Source: Asaccharospora irregularis DSM 2635 (GTDB lineage Bacteria; Bacillota; Clostridia; Peptostreptococcales; Peptostreptococcaceae). Taken from it: 64,000 nucleotides of DNA. The notes under the pieces are model-generated. The model searched no databases. It worked only from the letters and a program-made list of their open reading frames with translations, and was not told the origin of the DNA. How positions within the stretch are numbered: position 1 is the first letter of the stretch; each line of letters opens with the position of its first letter. The stretch lies in NCBI RefSeq assembly GCF_900129815.1, contig NZ_FQWX01000002.1, positions 1 through 64,000 on the forward strand, in the 5' to 3' direction. Positions 44,328 to 56,826 of the stretch are shown here, piece after piece. The translations under genes were made by a program, and so were the position numbers.

Positions 44328-45314
44328 ATGAACACAAAAGCTGGTATATTAGGTGTTGGAAGTTATCTGCCAGACAAGATACTAGATAATTTCCATCTTG
44401 AAAAAATTATGGACACATCAGATAAGTGGATAAGAGAAAGAACAGGTATAAGAGAAAGAAGAATAGCAGATGACAGTCAGGCAACTTCCGATTTAGCAAC
44501 TGAGGCCGCAAGAAAGGCTATTGAATGTGCTAAATTAAACCCAAAAGACATTGAACTTATAATAGTGGCATCAGCTACACCAGATATGTTTTTTCCGTCA
44601 ACAGCTTGTCTGGTACAAGAAAATCTAAAGGCATCAAATGCAGTTGCTTTTGATATATCAGCGGCATGCTCAGGATTTATATATGCACTAACAATAGCTA
44701 AGCAATTTGTTGATAACAATACATATAACAATGTACTGGTAATTGGTGCAGAGACCCTTTCAAGGGCTTTAGACTATAGTGACAGAACAACATCAATACT
44801 ATTTGGCGATGGTGCAGGAGCAGCTATAATAGGAAGGGTTAAAGAAGGAGGAATATTATCTACCTACCTGGGATCAGATGGAAGTGGCAAGGACTTCTTG
44901 GGGATACCAGGAGGAGGTTCTAGAAATCCGGCTACCCACGAAAGTGTAGACAAAAAACTACACACGATAAAGATGTCTGGAAGCGATGTATACAAATTTG
45001 CAGTTAGAATAATGGGAGAGGCCTCTTTAAGGGCACTTGAAAAGGCAAATATGACTACAGATGATATAGACTGCCTTATTCCTCATCAAGCTAATATAAG
45101 GATAATAGAGGCTTCAGCCAAGAGGCTTAAGTTAGACTTAGACAAGGTATACATAAACCTAGACAAATACGGTAATGTATCAGCGGCATCTGTACCAATC
45201 GCTCTAGATGAAGCATATAGAAGTGGAAAAATCAAAAAAGGTGACAATATAGTTCTAGTAGGCTTTGGAGGAGGATTAACCTGGGGTTCCTCTGTTGTTA
45301 ATTGGAGTTTATAA
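44328..45314 (+). CDS. fabH: 3-oxoacyl-ACP synthase III
   Basis: Condenses acetyl-CoA (or branched acyl-CoA) with malonyl-ACP to start fatty acid synthesis. The 328 residues keep the catalytic triad Cys114 (SAACSGF), His253 (IPHQANIR) and Asn283 (YGNVSAAS), with the GFGGGLTWGS ending. TGGAGGG precedes the ATG. fabK follows after 10 bases. Confidence 0.96.
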   Translation: MNTKAGILGVGSYLPDKILDNFHLEKIMDTSDKWIRERTGIRERRIADDSQATSDLATEAARKAIECAKLNPKDIELIIVASATPDMFFPSTACLVQENLKASNAVAFDISAACSGFIYALTIAKQFVDNNTYNNVLVIGAETLSRALDYSDRTTSILFGDGAGAAIIGRVKEGGILSTYLGSDGSGKDFLGIPGGGSRNPATHESVDKKLHTIKMSGSDVYKFAVRIMGEASLRALEKANMTTDDIDCLIPHQANIRIIEASAKRLKLDLDKVYINLDKYGNVSAASVPIALDEAYRSGKIKKGDNIVLVGFGGGLTWGSSVVNWSL

Positions 45315-45324
45315 GGAGGAGAGT

Positions 45325-46254
45325 ATGAATCAAATTTGTAAATTACTAAATATAAAATATCCTATAATTCAAGGTGGAATGGCATGGGTAGCAAATGCTT
45401 CTTTAGCTAGTGCTGTATCGAATGCTGGAGGGTTAGGAATAATAGCTGCTGGAAATGCACCAAAGGATATTATAAAAAGTGAAATAAATAAATGTAAGAA
45501 GTTAACAGATAAACCTTTTGGGGTCAATGTAATGTTGATGTCTCCATTTGTTGAAGAAATAATCGATTTGGTAATAGAAGAAAAAATAGAGGTAATAACT
45601 ACTGGAGCGGGAAACCCTGCAAAGTATATAGAAAAACTTAAAGGCGCTGGAGTAAAAATAATACCAGTAGTTCCAACTATATCACTTGCAAAAAGAATGG
45701 AAAAGTTAGGAGCAGATGCCATAATAGCAGAGGGAACAGAAGCTGGAGGACATATAGGTGATTTAACTACAATGGTATTGGTACCTCAGATTGTAGATGA
45801 AGTTGGTATACCTGTAATTGCGGCCGGAGGAGTAGCCGATGGAAGAGGTATAGTAGCATCATTTGCACTAGGGGCTAGTGCTGTACAAATTGGAACTAGA
45901 TTTATATGTAGTGAAGAATGTAGTGTGCATGAAAACTATAAAAATTTAGTTATAAAGGCTAAGGATAGAGATGCTGTAGTTACAGGAAGAAGTACAGGTC
46001 ATCCTGTAAGAACACTAAAAAATAAACTATCAAAAGAATTTTTAAAGATGGAAAAAGAAGGAGCTTCTATTGAGGAGTTAGATAAAAAAGGAAGTGGAGC
46101 ACTTAGACTTGCAACTGTGGATGGAGATCTTGAAAGAGGGTCATTTATGGCTGGTCAAATAGCTTCAATTATAAAAGATATAAAACCATGCAAAGAAATT
46201 ATAGAAGATATGGTAAGTCAAGCCAAGGCTATTATGCCTAACATAGAGTTATAA
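45325..46254 (+). CDS. fabK: enoyl-ACP reductase II (FMN-dependent)
   Basis: Last reduction of the elongation cycle, NAD(P)H- and FMN-dependent, triclosan-insensitive. The 309-residue TIM barrel of the nitronate monooxygenase-like family shows YPIIQGGMAWVA, ANAGGLGIIAAGN in the form SNAGGLGIIAAGN, GTEAGGHIGD and the phosphate-binding AAGGVADGRG. I start at ATG 45325 after AAGGAGG; an upstream start would overlap fabH. No fabI is in the operon. Confidence 0.94.
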   Translation: MNQICKLLNIKYPIIQGGMAWVANASLASAVSNAGGLGIIAAGNAPKDIIKSEINKCKKLTDKPFGVNVMLMSPFVEEIIDLVIEEKIEVITTGAGNPAKYIEKLKGAGVKIIPVVPTISLAKRMEKLGADAIIAEGTEAGGHIGDLTTMVLVPQIVDEVGIPVIAAGGVADGRGIVASFALGASAVQIGTRFICSEECSVHENYKNLVIKAKDRDAVVTGRSTGHPVRTLKNKLSKEFLKMEKEGASIEELDKKGSGALRLATVDGDLERGSFMAGQIASIIKDIKPCKEIIEDMVSQAKAIMPNIEL

Positions 46255-46269
46255 TTCAGGAGGTAAGCA

Positions 46270-47226
46270 ATGGGAAAATTAGCATTAGTATTTCCTGGGC
46301 AAGGAGCTCAATATGTGGGCATGGCTAAGGATTTATATGAAAAAAATAGTATATCAAAAAAAGTTATAGATGACGCCTGTGAATCTCTAGGAGTAGATTT
46401 AAGGAATATTATGTTTGAAGGCAGTGATGAAGAGTTAAGCAAAACAGAGAATACCCAACCAGCCATACTTACACACAGTATAGCTGCATTAGAAGCATTA
46501 AAGGCAGAGGTAGATTTTAAGTTTGATGGGTGTTTAGGTTTGTCTTTAGGAGAGTATAGTGCATTAGTAGCCGCAGGAAGCATAGATTTTTTGGAGGCTG
46601 TAAAACTAGTTAAAAAAAGAGGAAAGTTTATGCAAGATGCAGTTCCTTTAGGAAAAGGCGCTATGGCAGCTATATTAGGGCTAGATAGAGAAATATTACA
46701 AGGAATTATAAATAATATAGATGATGGAATTATAGAAGTAGCAAATTACAATTCACCAGGTCAAATAGTAATATCTGGTGAAACTATGTTAATAGATGAC
46801 GCAATTATAAAGTGTAAAGAAAGAGGAGCCAAAAGAGCAGTCAAGCTAAAAGTAAGTGGAGCTTTTCACTCATCCATGCTAAAAGATGCAGGAGTTAGGT
46901 TATCCAAAGAATTAGATAAGATAGATATATCAAAACCTAAAATAGATGTAGTAGCAAACGTAAATGCAGATTATTATCAAGAAGAAGTTAGAGATTTACT
47001 TATAAAGCAGGTGAGTTCATCTGTACTTTGGGAGAATTCTATAGAAAAGTTATTAGAAGAAGGATATGACAATTTTGTGGAAATAGGACCAGGAAAAACA
47101 TTGAAATCTTTTATTAAAAAAATAGCTTCTAATAAAAATGTAGATGTAAATATTTTCAACATAGATAGTTTAAACTCTTTAAACGAGTTTATAGAAATTT
47201 ATAGAAATGGGGAAATAAAATGTTAG
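46270..47226 (+). CDS. fabD: malonyl-CoA:ACP transacylase
   Basis: Loads malonyl onto acyl carrier protein. The 318 residues have VFPGQGAQ, the nucleophile Ser92 in GLSLGEYSAL, and the catalytic His in VSGAFHSSML (near 201). It overlaps fabG by 7 bases, implying translational coupling. Confidence 0.96.
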   Translation: MGKLALVFPGQGAQYVGMAKDLYEKNSISKKVIDDACESLGVDLRNIMFEGSDEELSKTENTQPAILTHSIAALEALKAEVDFKFDGCLGLSLGEYSALVAAGSIDFLEAVKLVKKRGKFMQDAVPLGKGAMAAILGLDREILQGIINNIDDGIIEVANYNSPGQIVISGETMLIDDAIIKCKERGAKRAVKLKVSGAFHSSMLKDAGVRLSKELDKIDISKPKIDVVANVNADYYQEEVRDLLIKQVSSSVLWENSIEKLLEEGYDNFVEIGPGKTLKSFIKKIASNKNVDVNIFNIDSLNSLNEFIEIYRNGEIKC

Positions 47227-47966
47227 ATATTAAAGGAAAAGTAGCTTTAGTAACTGGAGGATCTAGAGGAATAGGAAAAGAAGTAGCAAAAAAACTAGCA
47301 TCTTTTGGAGCAAACCTTATAATAAACTACACATCTAGAGAGGAATCTGCACTAGAAACAAAAAAAGAAATAGAAGATTTTGGTGTGAAATGCATGGTTG
47401 TAAAATGTGATGTATCAAAGTCAGAAGAAGTTAACTTGATGGTAGATGATGTAATAAAGGAATTTGGCCAAATAGATATACTGGTAAACAATGCTGGTAT
47501 AACAAGAGATGGGCTTCTTATGAGGATGAAAGAAGAGGATTTCGACAAGGTAATAGATATAAATCTTAAAGGAGTCTTTAATTGTACAAAGGCTGTATCT
47601 AAGCCTATGATGAAAAAGAAGTTTGGAAAAATAATTAATATGTCATCTGTAGTTGGTATAGTAGGAAACCCAGGTCAGGCTAATTACTGTGCATCAAAGG
47701 CAGGAGTTATAGGTTTTACTAAGGCTACGGCAAAAGAACTAGCATCAAGAAATATAAATATAAATGCTATTGCACCAGGATTTATAGATACTGATATGAC
47801 AAATGTATTAAGTGATGATTTAAAAAATACTATGTTAAAAAGTATTCCTAAAAATGAATTTGGTAAACCAGAAGATGTTGCAAATGTAGTGGCATTTTTA
47901 GCGAGTTCAATGTCTAGGTATGTAACAGGTCAAGTTATAAATGTAGATGGTGGAATGGTTATGTAA
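47220..47966 (+). CDS. fabG: 3-oxoacyl-ACP reductase
   Basis: NADPH-dependent short-chain dehydrogenase. The 248 residues have TGGSRGIG, NNAG, the catalytic Ser143 region, Tyr156 and Lys160 in YCASK, and the C-terminal GQVINVDGGMVM. Its ATG lies inside the last codons of fabD, with GGGGAA as ribosome site. Confidence 0.96.
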   Translation: MLDIKGKVALVTGGSRGIGKEVAKKLASFGANLIINYTSREESALETKKEIEDFGVKCMVVKCDVSKSEEVNLMVDDVIKEFGQIDILVNNAGITRDGLLMRMKEEDFDKVIDINLKGVFNCTKAVSKPMMKKKFGKIINMSSVVGIVGNPGQANYCASKAGVIGFTKATAKELASRNININAIAPGFIDTDMTNVLSDDLKNTMLKSIPKNEFGKPEDVANVVAFLASSMSRYVTGQVINVDGGMVM

Positions 47967-48011
47967 TAAAAATATTAATATAAGTTATTAAAAAAATCAG
48001 GAGGTAATTGT

Positions 48012-48236
48012 ATGTTTAATAAAGTTGTAGAAATAATAAAGGATCAATTAGGAGTTGAAGATAAAGAAATAACTATGGAAACTTCTTTAATGAAAGATTT
48101 AGAGGCAGACTCATTAGATGCAGTAGAAATAATAATGGCCTTAGAAGATGAATTTGATATAGAAATACCTGATACAGAGGCTGAAAAATTTAAGTCTATA
48201 GGTGATATAGTTAAATATATAGAAGCTAATAAATAG
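48012..48236 (+). CDS. acpP: acyl carrier protein
   Basis: A 74-residue acidic helical carrier with the phosphopantetheine site Ser34 in [14 protein letters not shown] precedes the ATG. It sits between fabG and fabF, 13 bases before the latter. Confidence 0.97.
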
Positions 48237-48249
48237 TGGAGGTATCTCT

Positions 48250-49488
48250 ATGAAAAAGAGAGTAGTTATAACTGGATTAGGATGTGTAACTCCTGTTGGG
48301 ATAGGAAAACAAGAGTTCTGGAACAATATAAAATCAGGAGTATGTGGTATTGAAAAGATTACTAGATTTGATGCTAGCACTTTCCAAACTCAGATAGCAG
48401 CAGAAGTTAAAGATTTTAATGGAGAAGAATATATAAGTAAAAAAGAATTAAAAAGATTAGATAGATTTGCTCAATATGCAATAGCTGCCTCTAAAATGGC
48501 GGTAGAGGATGCAGATTTAGATCTAGATAAGGTAGATAAAAATAATATGGGAGTTATCGTTGGTTCTGGTATAGGTGGAGTTGGGACTATGGAAGAACAA
48601 CATGAAGTACTTATGAAAAAAGGAAATAAAAGGGTAACTCCGTTTCTTGTACCTATGATGATAGGAAATATGGCTGCAGGTCAAGTTTCAATATTTCTGG
48701 GTGCAAAAGGACCAAACACAAATGTATGTACAGCTTGTGCATCAGGTACTCATTCAATAGGAGATGCTTTTAAAATTGTTCAAAGAGGAGATGCTACTAT
48801 AATGGTAGCGGGAGGCTCTGAAGCAGGAATAACACCACTTTCATTTGCAGGATTTTGTAATATGAAGGCTATGTCAGTTAGAAATGATGATCCTAAAACT
48901 GCTTCTCGTCCTTTTGACAAAGATAGAGATGGTTTTGTAATGGGAGAAGGTGCGGGTATAGTTATACTAGAAGAACTTGAACATGCTTTAAAAAGAGGAG
49001 CTAAGATATATGCTGAGGTTGTAGGATATGGTTTGACAGCAGATGCTTACCACATGACTACTCCAGCAGAAGATGGTGAAGGTGCAACAAGGGCTATGGA
49101 AATGGCACTGAGAGATGGGGATGTATCTATTGATGAAGTAGATTATATAAATGCCCACGGTACTTCAACACCGTATAATGATAGATTAGAAACATTGGCA
49201 ATAAAAAATGTGTTCAAAGAAAAAGCATATGATTTGTGCGTATCTTCAACAAAATCTATGACAGGTCATTTACTTGGAGCGTCAGGTGCAGTAGAGGCTA
49301 TTATTTGTGCTATGAGTGTAAAGGATGGATTTGTTCCCCCTACTATAAATGTACAAAACTTAGATGAAGAGTTAGACTTAGATTATGTATTAGATAATGG
49401 AAGAGATAGAGAGATTAGATATGCAATGTCAAATTCTTTAGGATTTGGTGGTCATAATGCTACTATAATATTAAAAAAATATGTATAA
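48250..49488 (+). CDS. fabF: 3-oxoacyl-ACP synthase II
   Basis: Elongating condensing enzyme of 412 residues. Catalytic Cys163 (CTACASGT) and the two histidines in [11 protein letters not shown] and [10 protein letters not shown] are present. It is the last gene of the operon. The operon lacks fabZ and the acc genes, which must be elsewhere. A strong terminator follows. Confidence 0.96.
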
Positions 49489-49726: not shown

Positions 49727-51640
49727 GTGAGTAAAAAACTGTTAATAGTGATGGCTAGCATATCTGTAATTATAGGTTCTATTGCTATATTTATTAAATA
49801 CAATCCGAATAACTCAGATCCACGAATTACATTAGACAAAATTTATCAAACATACCTTAGAGAAAATAAACTCGACAGTAAAGACTTAAAAAAATTAAAT
49901 GAGACTATCCGACATATGAGTGATGGAGTGGACAAAGAATTTTTAGTTGGATTTAGTAATTATGCAAATGGAAATAACAAAGAGGCAAAAAAGTATTTTA
50001 AATTAGTCAGTAAAGAGTTCAGTAGAAGTACAGACCCTTTGATAAAAATATATACAGGTAAATTTTTAGCACAAATAAACATTGAAGAAGGAAATGATAA
50101 AGAGGCTATTAATGTGGTGAAAAATACATTTGACTCAATACCAAAAGGCAGTTATGAAGAACTATTAGAACATATATGGGGGTTACTTTATCCGATTGGG
50201 TATTTAGAGGGCGGTTATGATTTAATAATATATGCCTTAAATGATATTATGAGCATAGATCGTAATCTAGGAAAAGAGCAGCAATTATATATATATGAAC
50301 GATTGTCTTCTGTACATAGGTTAAAGAGAAATTATTCTCAAGCGGTATATTTGACTGCAAAGGCTATTGCACTAGCCAAAGATCAGGGTGATGACTTTAA
50401 AGAATCTGTTTTAAAAATAGATTTGGCATCTATGATATTTCAATTCGATGAATATGCCCGTGCAGAAAAGCTTATCAAAGAAGCACTACAAGTCAATATT
50501 GAGGGTGTAGGAGCTAATGCAGAATCTAAGGTATATGCAATATCGAGTTTGATGGAGGCATATGTAAAATTAGAACAATATGATGATGTACTAAAGTATG
50601 GAAAACAATTACCCCAGTACGAAGATGATGTAGACTGGGATATATACAATGATATATCTATACTCGGAAATATTTTTATGGCACAATCTTATATGCATAA
50701 GGGGGACCTTAATAGAGCTAAGCAATGCTTAGATGAGGTAGAGGAGATTTTCAAAACAGATGAATATATATTTTTCTGGGATAAAGAGATATATTACTAC
50801 GAGGCATTAGGTCAGTACGATGAAGCAATTGGAAATTATGAAAATGCAATAAAAAATTATGAAAAGGCGCTAAAAGAGAGCAATGAAAAAGAAGTTAGCA
50901 TAAAGAAATTAGATGTGCTTGAGCGTTTATTTTCACTATATGACAAACAAGGCGACAGAGAACAAGAAGATAAATATCAGAAGCTTTTAATCGCAGAATA
51001 CAAAAATAATAAAAATACAAGAAATGAAGAAAATGTTTCTTATATTTTAGAGAAGGTAGATAGTGAAGAGAAAATGCTAGAAAGGGCTAAAAAAGAGTTG
51101 GCATTTTATAAAGTAGCTTCGATAATTGTTTTTCTTGCTACACTAATATTTGTATTTTTAGGTATGCAACTGAGAAAATCCCAAAAACAAAGCTGTATAG
51201 ATGGTTTAACGGGTGTTTATAATAGACATTATTTTGATATAATTTATAATAAATACATAGAGAGAAAAGAAAAGTTTTCTGTTATGATGGTAGATATTGA
51301 TAATTTTAAGGCCATCAACGATACCTATGGTCATGAGTTTGGCGATACTGTAATAAAAGGGATAACTGAGACTATAGGAAATCTATTAGATGAAGAGGAT
51401 AAGGAATTTAGGTATGGTGGAGAAGAATTTATTATATTAATAAAAGACAAACCTATAGAGCAGGTATTTAAGATAGCAGAAAAAATAAGAAGTGCAGTTG
51501 AATCTAAAGTGTGGAAAGAGGACATCGTTGTGACTATAAGTCTAGGGGTAGCAGAATTTAAAGGAGATAAAAACGTAGTAGAGATAGCAGACAAAAATTT
51601 ATATATGGCTAAAAAAATTGGAAAAAATAAAGTTGTATAA
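49727..51640 (+). CDS. TPR-containing membrane diguanylate cyclase
   Basis: A 637-residue signalling protein. It has an N-terminal membrane segment (about 4-24), an extracytoplasmic helical region with tetratricopeptide-like repeats (about 60-430, e.g. AIGNYENAIKNYEKALKES), a second membrane helix (about 463-483) and a cytoplasmic GGDEF domain (about 495-637). The catalytic motif reads YGGEEFII, an active variant, and DxxxFKxxND is intact (DIDNFKAINDTYGH), so c-di-GMP synthesis is likely. No RxxD inhibitory site is obvious. GTG start after GGGGG. It stands alone between the fab operon and the hydrogenase-like pair. Confidence 0.88.
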   Translation: MSKKLLIVMASISVIIGSIAIFIKYNPNNSDPRITLDKIYQTYLRENKLDSKDLKKLNETIRHMSDGVDKEFLVGFSNYANGNNKEAKKYFKLVSKEFSRSTDPLIKIYTGKFLAQINIEEGNDKEAINVVKNTFDSIPKGSYEELLEHIWGLLYPIGYLEGGYDLIIYALNDIMSIDRNLGKEQQLYIYERLSSVHRLKRNYSQAVYLTAKAIALAKDQGDDFKESVLKIDLASMIFQFDEYARAEKLIKEALQVNIEGVGANAESKVYAISSLMEAYVKLEQYDDVLKYGKQLPQYEDDVDWDIYNDISILGNIFMAQSYMHKGDLNRAKQCLDEVEEIFKTDEYIFFWDKEIYYYEALGQYDEAIGNYENAIKNYEKALKESNEKEVSIKKLDVLERLFSLYDKQGDREQEDKYQKLLIAEYKNNKNTRNEENVSYILEKVDSEEKMLERAKKELAFYKVASIIVFLATLIFVFLGMQLRKSQKQSCIDGLTGVYNRHYFDIIYNKYIERKEKFSVMMVDIDNFKAINDTYGHEFGDTVIKGITETIGNLLDEEDKEFRYGGEEFIILIKDKPIEQVFKIAEKIRSAVESKVWKEDIVVTISLGVAEFKGDKNVVEIADKNLYMAKKIGKNKVV

Positions 51641-51783: not shown

Positions 51784-53514
51784 ATGTGGTTTATGAATTT
51801 AAAGAAGACAACTTGCAAGAATTGTTATGCATGTATAAGATCCTGCCCAATTCATGCTATAGAAGTTAAAAATGAACAGGCACAGATAATGCGAGATAGA
51901 TGCATATTATGCGGGAGATGTTCTAAGGCATGTCCTCAAGGGATAAAGATAATAAGGTCTGAACTTAGGCTTGTTAAGAGGTATTTGGAAAATAAGGATA
52001 CAGTAGTTGCGTCTGTATCACCTAGCTTTCCTGCAGTTTTTGGGAAAAACAGCGATAAGCTTCCAAGAGTTCTTAAAATGCTAGGATTTGACTATTTCGA
52101 GGAGACTTTGGCTGGAATAGATCCTATTATAGATGAATATGAGAATTATGCTAACAAAGATGATGAGGATACATATATAACTAGTTTTTGTCCATCTGTA
52201 AACTTACTTGTTCAAAAGCATTACCCTGATTTAATTAAAAACTTAGTACCAGTAGTATCTCCTGCTGTTTATCATGGAAGGGTTCTTAAAGAAAAGTATG
52301 GGGAAAATGTTAAAGTTGTTTTCATAGGGCCTTGTATATCCAAAAAAACTGAGTGCCAAGAGGAATATTCTATTGATGCAGTGATTACCTTTAAAGAATT
52401 GATTAGATGGATAAGAGAGGAAAATATAGAACTGGATAGTTTAGACGAAGAACCATTTGGATATTTTAGTGAGGATAAAAGAGTATTTCCTATATTAGGT
52501 GGATTAGGGCAGTCAATATCACATAGAAATCCTAAAAAAGATGTTATAGAAGTAGACGGACTAGAGGAATGTATGGAGGTATTAAAATCTATTCAAAAAG
52601 GAAGACTAAAAAATACTTTTATTGATATGAGCTGTTGCAGACATAGTTGCCTGGGCGGATTTGGTATGCCGAGGGATAATGTAAGCTGCTATGAGAGAGA
52701 ACAAAGGATTAGAAAATATTCTAGTAGTCAGGTCAATATACCAAAAAAACTAGATGATAAGTCTAAGAGATTGTTAAAAGAGGATTGCAATATAGATACT
52801 TACAAATTGTTTACATCGCTAAATATACCTCTTAAAATACCAACTGATATAGAAATAAAAAAAATCCTAAACACAATGGGCAAATATACACTTAAAGATG
52901 AACTAAATTGTGGGAGTTGTGGGTATCATACTTGCAAGGAAAAAGCCATAGCTGTGTATAACAATATGGCGGAGGTAAATATGTGCCTTCCTTTTATGAG
53001 AGAGAAAGCGGAAAATTTAGCTAATATAATTTTTGAGACAACTCCCAATATGATTGTTATTTTAAACAAGGAACTTGATATTTTACAGCTAAATCCATCT
53101 GCTAGAGAATTTTTAGGAATAGAAGAGGGAATAGAAAAAGGTATGCCTATAGTAATGTTTTTAGATGACAAAATTTTCAGTAAAGTAAGGATGACTAGAA
53201 AAAACATATTTAGAGAAAAGGTTGTCATTAAGAATAAGATGGCAACGGTTATCCAAAGTGTAATATGGTTAGAAAAAGAGCAGCTTATGTTGTGGATAGC
53301 AGATGATATTACGGAAAATGAAAAAAAGGAGAAGAAAGTTCAAAAAATGAAAATAGATGCAATGGATATGGCACAGCATGTTATAAATAAGCAGATGACT
53401 GTTGCACAAGAAATTGCAAGTCTTCTAGGTGAAACGACTGCCGAAACAAAAGTAACATTAACTAATCTTAAAAAACTTATTTTAGAGGAAGAAGAGGAAC
53501 AGGTGGATGAATAG
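51784..53514 (+). CDS. sensory [FeFe]-hydrogenase-like protein with FeS and PAS domains
   Basis: A 576-residue multidomain protein resembling group C (HydS-type) sensory [FeFe] hydrogenases. In order: two 4Fe-4S ferredoxin clusters (Cys11, 14, 17, 21 and 40, 43, 46, 50), a hydrogenase large-subunit domain (about 75-310), a 4Fe-4S FeS domain (Cys376, 379, 384, 401), a PAS domain (about 410-520) and a C-terminal helix. The H-cluster ligand cysteines appear conserved (Cys136 in TSFCP, Cys184 in IGPCISKK, Cys285 and Cys289 in CCRHSC), but the proton-relay cysteine of catalytic enzymes is Phe135. It is therefore probably a sensor of H2 or redox state, not a bulk catalyst. GGGGG precedes the ATG. 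It overlaps the phosphatase gene by 8 bases. Confidence 0.85.
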   Translation: MWFMNLKKTTCKNCYACIRSCPIHAIEVKNEQAQIMRDRCILCGRCSKACPQGIKIIRSELRLVKRYLENKDTVVASVSPSFPAVFGKNSDKLPRVLKMLGFDYFEETLAGIDPIIDEYENYANKDDEDTYITSFCPSVNLLVQKHYPDLIKNLVPVVSPAVYHGRVLKEKYGENVKVVFIGPCISKKTECQEEYSIDAVITFKELIRWIREENIELDSLDEEPFGYFSEDKRVFPILGGLGQSISHRNPKKDVIEVDGLEECMEVLKSIQKGRLKNTFIDMSCCRHSCLGGFGMPRDNVSCYEREQRIRKYSSSQVNIPKKLDDKSKRLLKEDCNIDTYKLFTSLNIPLKIPTDIEIKKILNTMGKYTLKDELNCGSCGYHTCKEKAIAVYNNMAEVNMCLPFMREKAENLANIIFETTPNMIVILNKELDILQLNPSAREFLGIEEGIEKGMPIVMFLDDKIFSKVRMTRKNIFREKVVIKNKMATVIQSVIWLEKEQLMLWIADDITENEKKEKKVQKMKIDAMDMAQHVINKQMTVAQEIASLLGETTAETKVTLTNLKKLILEEEEEQVDE

Positions 53515-54673
53515 TGGAATTTTTGTCGACTTTGCAAGTGGTAGTTTAAATAAATATACAGAAGAATTATGTGGTGACAAAGTAGAATTTTATAACAAAG
53601 ATGGCGATTTTATTGTCGTACTGTCTGATGGATTAGGTAGTGGTGTAAAAGCAAATATTCTAGCCACTCTAACGGCTAAGATAGCTGTAACAATGCTGAG
53701 AGATGGACTATTAATTGAAGAAGTAGTGGACACAATATTAAAAACTCTTCCAGTGTGTTCTATAAGAAATGTAGCTTATTCAACCTTTACAATTATAAAA
53801 ATAGCAAAGGATGGAATGGCATATATAGCAGAGTTTGATAATCCGAGTGTATTTTTTATGAGAAATAATGCAATAAAAAAATTAGACTGGATTTATAAAG
53901 AGATTAATGGACAAAAAATAAGAGAAACTAATTTTAAATTACAGGAAAAAGACATAATAGTATCTGTGAGTGATGGAGCTATTTATGCGGGAACAGGACC
54001 CACATTAAATTTAGATTGGAGATGGGATGATATTGCAAGGTATTTAAAGAGATTTACCAATAATGATATGTCGGCAAGGTCAGTGGCCAACGAGTTATTA
54101 GGTGTGTGTGATCAGCTTTATATGCAAAAACCACAAGATGATACTACAGTAGCTGTTATAAAAATTACTAAATCACAAAAGGCCGTTTTATTTTCAGGGC
54201 CACCTATAGATAAGGATATGGATAAGTTAATAGTTGAGAAAATAATGAACACTAAAGGTAAAAAAATAGTTTGTGGAGGATCTGCAGGAAATATTGTAGC
54301 TAGAGAGTTAGGAAGAGATATAAAAACAAATTTTAGAATAGTAGATAAAGAAGTACCTCCTATGGGGTATCTAGAAGGAATAGACTTATTGACAGAGGGA
54401 GTATTGACAATAAGAAAGGCGACAGAAAAATTAAAAATGTTAAAATCATCTACGGATTTAAAAATATTAGATGGTGAGGATGGGGCATCTAGATTGGCTA
54501 AAATGTTGTACGAAGATTGTACTCATATAAAAATGTTGGTTGGTAGAGCTATAAATCCTGCTCACCAAAACCCAGATTTTCCTAGAGAGTTAAATATAAA
54601 GGTGTATGTATTAAATTCACTAAAAGATGTTCTTGTTGATTTAGGAAAAATTGTTGAAATAGAGTACTATTAG
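53507..54673 (+). CDS. SpoIIE-type PP2C phosphatase with an extra C-terminal domain
   Basis: A 388-residue soluble protein. About 1-225 is a SpoIIE/PP2C domain with metal-binding VVLSDGLGSGVKA, VSVSDGAIYAG and PQDDTTVAVIKI. About 226-388 is a separate domain I do not recognise, beginning LFSGPPIDKDMD with a Rossmann-like KKIVCGGSAGNIVARELG. It has no membrane segments, so it is not sporulation SpoIIE itself. Its ATG lies within the last codons of the hydrogenase-like gene, so the two are coupled. The pair resembles the HydS-phosphatase arrangement reported for clostridia. It probably turns the sensor state into dephosphorylation of an unknown partner. Confidence 0.85.
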   Translation: MNSGIFVDFASGSLNKYTEELCGDKVEFYNKDGDFIVVLSDGLGSGVKANILATLTAKIAVTMLRDGLLIEEVVDTILKTLPVCSIRNVAYSTFTIIKIAKDGMAYIAEFDNPSVFFMRNNAIKKLDWIYKEINGQKIRETNFKLQEKDIIVSVSDGAIYAGTGPTLNLDWRWDDIARYLKRFTNNDMSARSVANELLGVCDQLYMQKPQDDTTVAVIKITKSQKAVLFSGPPIDKDMDKLIVEKIMNTKGKKIVCGGSAGNIVARELGRDIKTNFRIVDKEVPPMGYLEGIDLLTEGVLTIRKATEKLKMLKSSTDLKILDGEDGASRLAKMLYEDCTHIKMLVGRAINPAHQNPDFPRELNIKVYVLNSLKDVLVDLGKIVEIEYY

Positions 54674-54837: not shown

Positions 54838-56826
54838 ATGAAGAATCTATCTAAAGTATCAGATGGATATTTAGAAAATAAAATTAAATATTTAAAATTA
54901 CTCGCAAAACAGTATCCTAGCATATCAAAGGCAAGTACTGAAATTATAAATTTAGAGGCAATACTAAATCTTCCAAAGGGAACAGAGCATTTTATAACAG
55001 ATATACATGGGGAGTACGAACCATTTGTTCATGTGCTTAAAAATGGATCTGGTGTAATAAAAAGAAAGATAGAAGAATTATTTTCAGACACATTAGATGA
55101 AAGTGAAAAGAAAATGTTGGCTACCCTTGTTTATTATCCAGAAGAAAAAATAGAGTTAATTACTAAACAAGAAGATAATATAGAGGATTTTTATAGAAAA
55201 AATATATATAGGCTTATAGAGCTTTGTAGGTATGCATCTAGTAAGTATACAAGATCTAAGGTAAGAAAGCTTTTACCGGATGATTTTAAGTATATAATAG
55301 AAGAGCTACTACACGAGCATATGAACAGCCAACACAAAAAAGAGTACTACAAAAGCATTGTAGAAACAATAATACAAATAGATAGAGCAAAAGAATTTAT
55401 AATAGCTATATCCACAGCGATACAGAAACTAGTTGTAGATAAGCTTCACATTATTGGAGATATTTATGATAGAGGACCGAGACCAGATATAATAGTAGAT
55501 AAATTAATAGAACACCACTGTGTAGATATACAATGGGGAAACCATGATATATTATGGATGGGTGCTGCTTCTGGAGAAAAAACTTGTATAGCAAATGCAC
55601 TTAGGATATCAGCTAGATACGCAAATTTAGATATAATAGAGGATATTTATGGAATAAACTTACTTCCGCTTGCTACATTTGCAATGGATATGTACAAAGA
55701 CGATCCTTGCAAGGATTTTATGCCGAAAACTAATGACCAGAGCTTTACAAGTAGAGAAAAATCATTAATAGCTAAGATGCATAAGGCAATAAGTATAATT
55801 CAGTTTAAATTAGAAGGGGAAGTAATAAATAGAAGACCTGAATTTGAGATGGATCATAGACTTCTTTTAAATAATATAAACTACGATAATGGAACAATAA
55901 ATATAAAGGGAAAAGAGTATAAATTAAAGGATACGTATTTCCCTACTATAGATAAAAACAATCCATATAAACTCACAAATGAAGAAAAAAATATAATTGA
56001 TAAGCTGGTAATTTCATTTAAGAGAAGTGAGAAGCTACAAAAGCATGTTTCATTTTTATTTTCAAAAGGAAGTATATACTTAAAAGCCAATTCAAATCTT
56101 TTAATACACGGCTGTATCCCACTAAATGAAGATGGAAGCTTTATGTCCATGAAAATAAAAGGAAAAGAATACAGTGGAAAAGCCTTGATGGATAAGATGG
56201 AAGCCTTATCTAGAGAGGGGTATTTCTTTGAAAGTAAATCTAATCAAAAACAATATGGAATGGATATTATGTGGTATTTATGGACTGGGAAATGTTCATC
56301 TCTGTTTGGAAAAGACGATATGACAACATTTGAAAGATATTTTATAAATGAAAAAGAAACACACAAGGAAAATAAGAATCCATATTTTAAATTTAGAGAA
56401 GACGAGAGTATATGTGAAAAGATATTCGAGGAATTTGGACTTGAGGTAGAGGGTTCTCATATAATAAATGGGCACGTTCCAGTTGAAAGTAAAAAGGGAG
56501 AAAGCCCTATAAAGGCAAATGGTAAAATACTTGTAATCGACGGAGGATTCTCTAGGGCTTATCAAAATAAGACGGGGATAGCAGGGTATACTCTGATATA
56601 TAATTCTTATAGTTTGCAATTAGTGTCGCATGAACCGTTTAATTGTGCAGAGGAAGCTATTGTAAATGAGAGTGATATTTTATCTACGACAGTAGTAGTT
56701 GAACATAAAGCTGAGAGAAAAAGAGTAAGAGATACAGATAATGGAATAAAAATTCAAGAAGAAATAGATGACTTAAAATTACTTTTAATGGCTTACAAAA
56801 AAGGTCTGATAAAGGAATTGCAATAG
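54838..56826 (+). CDS. fbp: class III fructose-1,6-bisphosphatase
   Basis: Gluconeogenic phosphatase of the Firmicutes-specific class III (metallophosphoesterase fold, PEP-activated in B. subtilis). The 662 residues have [45 protein letters not shown] and the late HIINGHVPV, which carry the metal ligands. Length matches the family. TGGAGG precedes the ATG. It is a single-gene unit with its own promoter and a strong terminator. Confidence 0.96.

Follow-up and report, generated by a model that had tools for sequence, protein, structure and literature searches.

Sensory hydrogenases linked to phosphatases

Group C3 of the [FeFe]-hydrogenases in HydDB is designated 'Phosphatase-linked (putative)', and its members are described as possible H2 sensors and regulators acting through serine/threonine phosphatases (PMC5037454). 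The hfsABCD operon of Thermoanaerobacterium, as its published accounts describe it, encodes a PAS-containing hydrogenase-like sensor (HfsB) and a serine phosphatase (HfsC), and deletion of hfsA or hfsB gave higher ethanol yield and adhE expression, an effect that needs hfsC and hfsD (PMC5707799, PMC11837493). In Ruminococcus albus, a sensory hydrogenase with an H-cluster domain, a PAS domain, and a putative Ser/Thr phosphatase is reported to be clustered with adhE and a group A1 hydrogenase, and the cluster to respond to a lower H2 level in co-culture (PMC6776011). The sensory hydrogenases TmHydS and TamHydS, the latter without a PAS domain, are described as having Ala in place of the proton-relay Cys and a functional H-cluster (PMC10055695, PMC8163306). 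Among the phosphatases, RsbU is described as relaying signals to its PP2C domain by way of a coiled-coil linker at the N-terminus, which acts on the alpha1/alpha2 switch; RsbP and RsbZ are proposed to work likewise (PMC12143880). Here we analysed a gene pair within the first 64,000 nucleotides (nt) of contig NZ_FQWX01000002.1 of Asaccharospora irregularis DSM 2635 (hereafter, the window), in which a HydS/HfsB-like sensor gene (576 amino acids, aa; 51784..53514) is followed by an HfsC-like SpoIIE/PP2C phosphatase gene (388 aa; 53507..54673), both, like every part of them located below, being on the plus strand. By the published descriptions, the pair is of a known kind, HydDB group C3 or HfsB-HfsC, and we put at about 0.5 the probability that it is a split sensor-phosphatase of this kind with coupling in trans and, in the lineage of the window, a redox input. 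What is new here is the co-occurrence of the sensor tail with the C-terminal domain of the phosphatase, which points to coupling in trans, and a variant that keeps the cubane and the phosphatase link with a rebuilt hydrogen-binding pocket. The literature searched, which was screened by title and abstract opening and mostly without subscription journals, yielded no description of a HydS that has lost the [2Fe] site or has a bulky residue at the relay position.

The window HydS matches the C3 architecture of an N-terminal ferredoxin domain, an H-domain, a C-terminal Cx2Cx4Cx16C iron-sulphur (FeS) motif, and a PAS domain. The 2x[4Fe-4S] ferredoxin domain (residues 5-53, 51796..51942; Pfam Fer4_10/Fer4, with Fer4_10 matching residues 5-51), whose cluster Cys are invariant in 16 family rows, is followed by the [FeFe]-hydrogenase H-domain (residues 73-292, 52000..52659; PF02906, Fe_hyd_lg_C, E 1.3e-52; Foldseek matches are hydrogenases), the FeS motif of C376, C379, C384, and C401 (residues 374-403, 52903..52992; PF04060, invariant in 16 rows), and the PAS core (residues 416-461, 53029..53166; PF13188, PAS_8, above cut-off). 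The gene calls rest on the list of open reading frames (ORFs) and Pfam, and for HydS also on family orthologs; by their ORF coordinates the two genes overlap by 8 bases (53507..53514). In the PP2C/PPM domain of the phosphatase (residues 5-222, 53519..54172; Pfam SpoIIE at 32-220, E 1.1e-11, and predicted structure), D41, G42, D156, G157, D211, and D212 are invariant in 42 rows, and the PP2C fold with conserved Asp, which we take to be those of the metal site, places the protein among the SpoIIE/PPM phosphatases. The first-pass annotation, which had proposed a [FeFe]-hydrogenase-like sensor with added FeS and PAS domains and an 8-base gene overlap with a SpoIIE-type phosphatase, is confirmed by Pfam and by the coordinates; its remark that group C hydrogenase-phosphatase pairs are known in outline agrees with the HydDB C3 definition and HfsB-HfsC, and it was silent on the second, C-terminal domain of the phosphatase (~160 aa, without a Pfam match).

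Although the HydS gene adjoins a SpoIIE/PP2C phosphatase gene as in the C3 definition, its pocket is remodelled, and its likeness to C3 rests on domains and gene neighbour. Relative to prototypical group A enzymes, from which this sets it apart, C299, M353, and M497 are replaced by F135, G182, and S283. The Gly and Ser replacements are also described for TmHydS (PMC10055695, PMC8163306), whereas the relay position is Ala in TmHydS and TamHydS and Phe in the window. Like HfsB and HfsC, to which we liken them by description, the two proteins come from one operon, but genes like hfsA or hfsD are missing beside the pair, and the residue at the relay position is bulky. Its neighbourhood also differs from that in R. 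albus, where the H2-linked regulation is inferred. In RsbP/RsbQ, RsbU/RsbT, and RsbZ, as described, a sensor input and a coiled-coil linker act on the PP2C alpha1/alpha2 switch (PMC12143880); we propose a likeness to these systems, with the difference that here the sensor is a protein separate from the phosphatase, which bears an additional domain at its C-terminus.

A common order in 80 named loci is small 2Fe-2S protein, HydS, phosphatase, and hydrogenase: the 2Fe-2S protein is upstream of HydS in 62/80, a hydrogenase is the next ORF behind the phosphatase in 38 of the 72 loci with a called phosphatase (6/72 loci end there), and AdhE lies within the locus in 20/80. When named and family loci are taken together, the 2Fe-2S protein is found ≤1.5 kb upstream in 71/108; among the 37 loci without a match, two had <60 nt and three <1.1 kb of upstream sequence. 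By its position only, this protein could be HfsA. The window pair has no adjacent 2Fe-2S protein or catalytic hydrogenase, which distinguishes it from the HfsABCD operon, and the sole match for the 2Fe-2S protein in the genome lies inside a 631-aa frame, a NuoF-like subunit. HydS with Ala at the relay position was also seen in records labelled Bacteroidales/Bacteroidetes and Calditrichales (L076, L103, L118, L048), which suggests that HydS has spread beyond Bacillota.

Probable coupling of the sensor tail to the phosphatase

The phosphatase follows HydS in 103/108 loci, and the five misses comprise four loci that end <120 nt from HydS and a tandem copy (L028). The most conserved stretch of HydS is its C-terminal helix, with a mean column identity of 63% as compared to 52% for the whole protein. 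In the window, this output helix covers approximately residues 526-565 (53359..53478; core VINKQMTVAQEIASLLGETTAETKVTLT), as judged from column conservation and from the helices predicted at 510-548 and 552-574, where the predicted local distance difference test score (pLDDT) of the blocks is only 45-73 from residue 521 on. We ran profiles of the helix and of the C-terminal domain of the phosphatase over 391 class genomes: the helix matched 112 and the domain also 112, with 108 in common against 32 expected by chance (naive P 7e-86, phylogeny ignored), and 105 of the 114 domain matches sit 637-740 nt downstream of the helix on the same strand. The other nine comprise three on contigs without the partner, one split by the record end, two fragments with stops, and three exceptions, in G133, G166, and G191. 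Helix-only genomes are G106 and G327, in which the helix matches are weak (E 7e-4 and 3e-3), G132, in which the phosphatase start lies within the last 300 nt of a contig, and G127, in which the contig ends. In G133, HydS adjoins the phosphatase, with a helix that diverges too far to be scored; a divergent helix pairs with a divergent adjacent phosphatase in G133, G213, G231, and G310. Co-occurrence and adjacency on this scale back the coupling of sensor to phosphatase that had been read from the window alone.

In the model, the window phosphatase opens directly with the first PP2C strand and therefore lacks an RsbU-type linker. Its alpha1 helix (residues 46-65, 53642..53701) has the highest mean conservation of the five parts measured (0.83, with 0.63 for the PP2C domain; 99 rows), and is taken, by its position in the predicted fold, as the counterpart of the RsbU/SpoIIE regulatory switch helix. 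Since tail and C-terminal domain co-occur and adjoin, HydS probably supplies in trans the coiled-coil that RsbU and RsbP carry in cis, a contact that we infer by analogy with those phosphatases.

Some loci are rearranged. Tandem HydS copies occur in L134 and L135 (G013, G014), the first copy being without a phosphatase directly behind it. In G191 (locus L194), HydS is gone, a small 2Fe-2S protein (PF01257) abuts the phosphatase, and EELSGD replaces EELCGD in the phosphatase. In G166 (locus L197), HydS and phosphatase are 17 kb apart, and behind the phosphatase come DRTGG, HATPase_c_2, and another protein with H-domain and FeS but no PAS; in that lineage there may be a kinase partner.

Apparent remodelling of the [2Fe] pocket

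We mapped residues via the genome's own group A hydrogenase, the numbering of which equals CpI+3 at five anchors; the constant offset at all five makes the mapping firm. The residues lining the [2Fe] pocket, and with them the nine positions used below for its volume, are presumed ones. The mapping upholds the earlier observation that all four presumed H-cluster Cys are kept and that Phe135 (codon 52186..52188) replaces the relay Cys at the position of CpI C299: the cubane Cys of the window HydS are C136, C184, C285, and C289, and they are invariant in 116/116 HydS rows. Two duplicates had been removed, L024 (same contig sequence as L042) ahead of the tree and L028 (identical to L134a) ahead of the counting. 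Of the 116 rows, 76 have Cys at the relay position, 12 Ala, 4 Ser, and 24 a bulky residue. The bulky residues are F, L, M, or Y in a 21-row clade that holds the window (bulky1) and Y in a separate 3-row clade (bulky2), on a quick HydS tree without bootstraps that warns of long branches meeting, including L037-L039 and L028. As a group, the phosphatase-linked sensors have not lost the relay Cys, and Phe is the mark of a sub-lineage.

In the 92 rows with Cys, Ala, or Ser, A230, P231, P324, E361, and G422 are invariant and Met is found at 325 in 91; in bulky1, the numbers of rows keeping them are 19, 20, 16, 12, and 6 of 21, respectively, and a single row has Met325. The window HydS has Ser at 230, Ala at 325, Tyr at 327, and Asp at 495. 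When positions conserved in ≥97% of the reference rows were considered near-invariant, and those kept in <75% of a clade lost, losses in the H-domain amounted to 8/30 in bulky1 and 13/30 in bulky2 against 7/250 in eight control clades pooled (Fisher P 3e-5 and 8e-10, uncorrected for shared descent); as the bulky lineages are two events and not 24, these P values overstate the case. The control clade divergent4 has a longer stem branch (1.67), yet the controls stay at that low count. Out of 12 pocket positions named beforehand, 3 are lost in bulky1, 4 in bulky2, and none in the eight controls, and the summed side-chain volume at the nine positions rises from 918 cubic angstrom in the reference to 1057 and 1150, a gain of ~140 and ~230. 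In the tail, 0/7 near-invariant positions are lost in either bulky clade, so the genes of the bulky lineages are not decaying.

We considered two other causes. A general relaxation of the H-domain in the clade of the window was rejected, because overall identity is ordinary and the positions changed are otherwise near-invariant. Nor is the bulky residue explained by the absence of the upstream 2Fe-2S protein: 10 bulky rows have that protein (9 F, 1 Y) and 14 do not, as counted before duplicates were dropped and with a search pattern that missed L059. By the alignments, the selective demands on the [2Fe] pocket changed in the bulky lineages, and the pattern suggests an altered or lost [2Fe] site and a redox rather than an H2 sensor; absence of the [2Fe] unit would be the most economical reading. 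Several observations weigh against it. K358, presumably a [2Fe] contact, is kept in 21/21 bulky1 rows (Arg in bulky2), as is P231 in all but one, and the window HydS itself keeps G422, E361, and P324. H-domain identity to the reference is ordinary in bulky1 (0.355, controls 0.36-0.41) and lower in bulky2 (0.305), but there the Fer4 and FeS domains are lower too. The H-domain losses in bulky1 do not differ significantly from those in the other domains (8/30 vs 3/35, P 0.09), and most H-domain losses fall outside the 12 pre-named positions. TmHydS and TamHydS, by their published descriptions, are active despite the missing relay Cys.

Sensory input and proposed mechanism

The draft genome (2.62 Mb, 98.9% complete), in which the window lies on contig C48, encodes three H-domain proteins: one of group A on C56 and one of group B on C75 (labels by motif), and the window HydS. 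The first-pass annotation had named hydEFG as a check on H-cluster assembly. The genes are present, with hydE, hydF, hydG, and a TM1266-like regulator forming one cluster on C37, all above curated cut-offs; their presence is nevertheless non-discriminating for the sensor, because the genome has two other [FeFe] hydrogenases and hydF is common in the family with or without the sensor. A full-length HydS ortholog (E ≤ 2e-100) is found in 28/71 family genomes, the window genome counted, and hydF in 68/71, that is, in 27/28 with the sensor and 41/43 without; the sensor genome lacking a hydF match is G069 alone, a draft of 94% completeness and 7% contamination. We therefore set hydEFG aside as an uninformative test of H2 function.

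The window HydS could still be a true H2 sensor, with a complete H-cluster in which Phe135 merely slows proton exchange and with the H2 level setting phosphatase activity, as proposed for HfsB and the R. albus HydS. The retained cubane Cys, K358, and P231 are as this would predict, hydEFG is at hand, TmHydS and TamHydS are described as building the H-cluster without the relay Cys, the R. albus cluster is reported to respond to lower H2 in co-culture, and six of the family neighbourhoods nearest to the window retain the upstream 2Fe-2S protein despite Phe. Yet positions near-invariant elsewhere are altered in the bulky lineages, the other relay replacements are the small Ala (12 rows) or Ser (4), and the hfsA-like and hfsD-like neighbours are missing, so that we regard H2 sensing by this protein as somewhat unlikely. 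Sensing of another small ligand, such as carbon monoxide (CO) or formaldehyde, at the remodelled cluster would fit pocket changes that are lineage-consistent rather than random; a filled pocket, however, speaks against ligand access, and we hold this possibility to be quite improbable.

In the split sensor-phosphatase with redox input that we prefer, HydS would accept electrons via its [4Fe-4S] clusters and the signal would move on to the PAS domain and then to the conserved C-terminal helix, which would bind the PP2C domain, the product of another gene, at its alpha1/alpha2 switch and set the activity of that domain, the coiled-coil logic of RsbU/RsbP thus operating in trans. In the lineage of the window, the [2Fe] pocket would be filled and altered with the cubane ligands kept, such that the protein would most likely have lost H2 sensing and read redox poise instead. 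The earlier proposal that H2 or redox state feeds the phosphatase thus stands as to sensory coupling, and of its two inputs redox is the likelier, since Phe marks a sub-lineage with a remodelled [2Fe] pocket. A more inclusive scenario, in which an H2-sensing [FeFe] hydrogenase turned at least twice into an H2-independent Fe-S redox sensor, its [2Fe] pocket filled by bulky residues while cubane and trans phosphatase output were kept, together with a novel C-terminal domain on the phosphatase and a non-STAS target, is offered tentatively and at less than even odds.

Target of the phosphatase

The phosphatase would act on a phosphoprotein, and a dedicated STAS protein is probably not its substrate. 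STAS matches in the genome number two, as do small anti-sigma kinases above cut-off; they fall into a SpoIIAA-AB-SigF set (C33) and, next to gyrA, an RsbW/SigB-like set (C46). Its SpoIIE-type phosphatases are three, a SpoIIE-sized one (C52), a 587-aa GAF-containing one (C51) that resembles C. difficile RsbZ as described (PMC12143880), and that of the window; with the first two at hand, the two STAS proteins have likelier phosphatases than the window's. Two small anti-sigma kinases are found in 21/28 family genomes with the sensor and in 30/43 without, and in 9/20 named genomes that have the pair there is only one such kinase, putatively SpoIIAB. By these counts a dedicated RsbW-type kinase partner is not the rule, though a third HATPase_c_2 match occurs in 5/28 family genomes with the sensor and 0/43 without, and a non-STAS target is tentatively favoured.

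Partner-switching, in which the window phosphatase would dephosphorylate the STAS protein of the C46 cluster, accords with the STAS substrates described for SpoIIE-type phosphatases, with the very presence of that cluster (the contig ends just beyond it), with the phosphatase lying beside DRTGG and HATPase_c_2 genes in G166, and with the third HATPase_c_2 match being confined to sensor genomes in the family. Given that the RsbZ-like phosphatase is present for the C46 role, that two kinases are about as frequent without the sensor, and that nearly half of the named genomes with the pair have one such kinase only, we consider it unlikely. For the downstream target, which the first-pass annotation left unnamed, a STAS protein is now considered less likely.

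C-terminal domain and genomic neighbourhood

Residues 225-388 of the phosphatase (54179..54670) form an uncharacterised C-terminal domain, predicted as a mostly confident alpha/beta fold, with the conserved motifs GPP, CGG, PP, DLxTEG, and NPAHQ. The window copy has no Pfam match, and other members have scattered weak ones; a PDB profile search with the domain gave phosphoheptose isomerase as best match (E 0.04) and one weaker match, and structure searches with the whole phosphatase were filled by PP2C-domain matches, so that the domain may yet have a known fold. In the 391 class genomes, the frames with the domain are as long as a phosphatase (mostly 373-432 aa) or else are shorter copies and fragments, and hence no other architecture was found. 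In L058 (Thermosediminibacter litoriperuensis), which was left out of the domain alignment, the phosphatase frame is out of register within this domain, indicating a frameshift or sequencing error.

The ten main neighbouring ORFs (45.3-60.3 kb) belong to fatty-acid synthesis, TPR-GGDEF, fructose-bisphosphatase, and SpoIIIA families, and family matching found no kinase, STAS, or anti-sigma families among them, in line with the initial remark that no kinase or anti-sigma partner is nearby. Fatty-acid synthesis genes lie upstream of the pair (45295-49488) and a Firmicute fructose-1,6-bisphosphatase downstream (54838-56826), while a 637-aa TPR-GGDEF protein (49727-51640, same strand) is encoded directly upstream of HydS with a gap of 143 bp. 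None of the 17 family neighbourhoods examined has a GGDEF gene directly upstream of HydS, and when these were clustered, the flanking fatty-acid synthesis and fructose-1,6-bisphosphatase ORFs, a short-chain dehydrogenase excepted, had no counterpart in them. An Rfam scan of the window gave zero matches, and promoter-like sites were not more frequent than in shuffled sequence. Terminator-like sites numbered 4 with 1.3 expected, none being between the HydS and phosphatase genes.

Implications

The phosphatase-linked HydS compared here mostly keep the relay Cys (76/116), which qualifies the published view of groups C and D, as described, that this Cys is not conserved and is mostly Ala. HydS of the Cys type and of the Phe type are paired proteins for testing what the [2Fe] site adds to signalling, and the C-terminal domain of the phosphatase is a clear structural target. 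The likely output element of HydS (the QEIASLLGETTAETK helix) and a candidate partner surface on the phosphatase can now be named, and H2- or redox-dependent phosphatase control is thereby directly testable. Such control bears on ethanol yield in biofuel bacteria.

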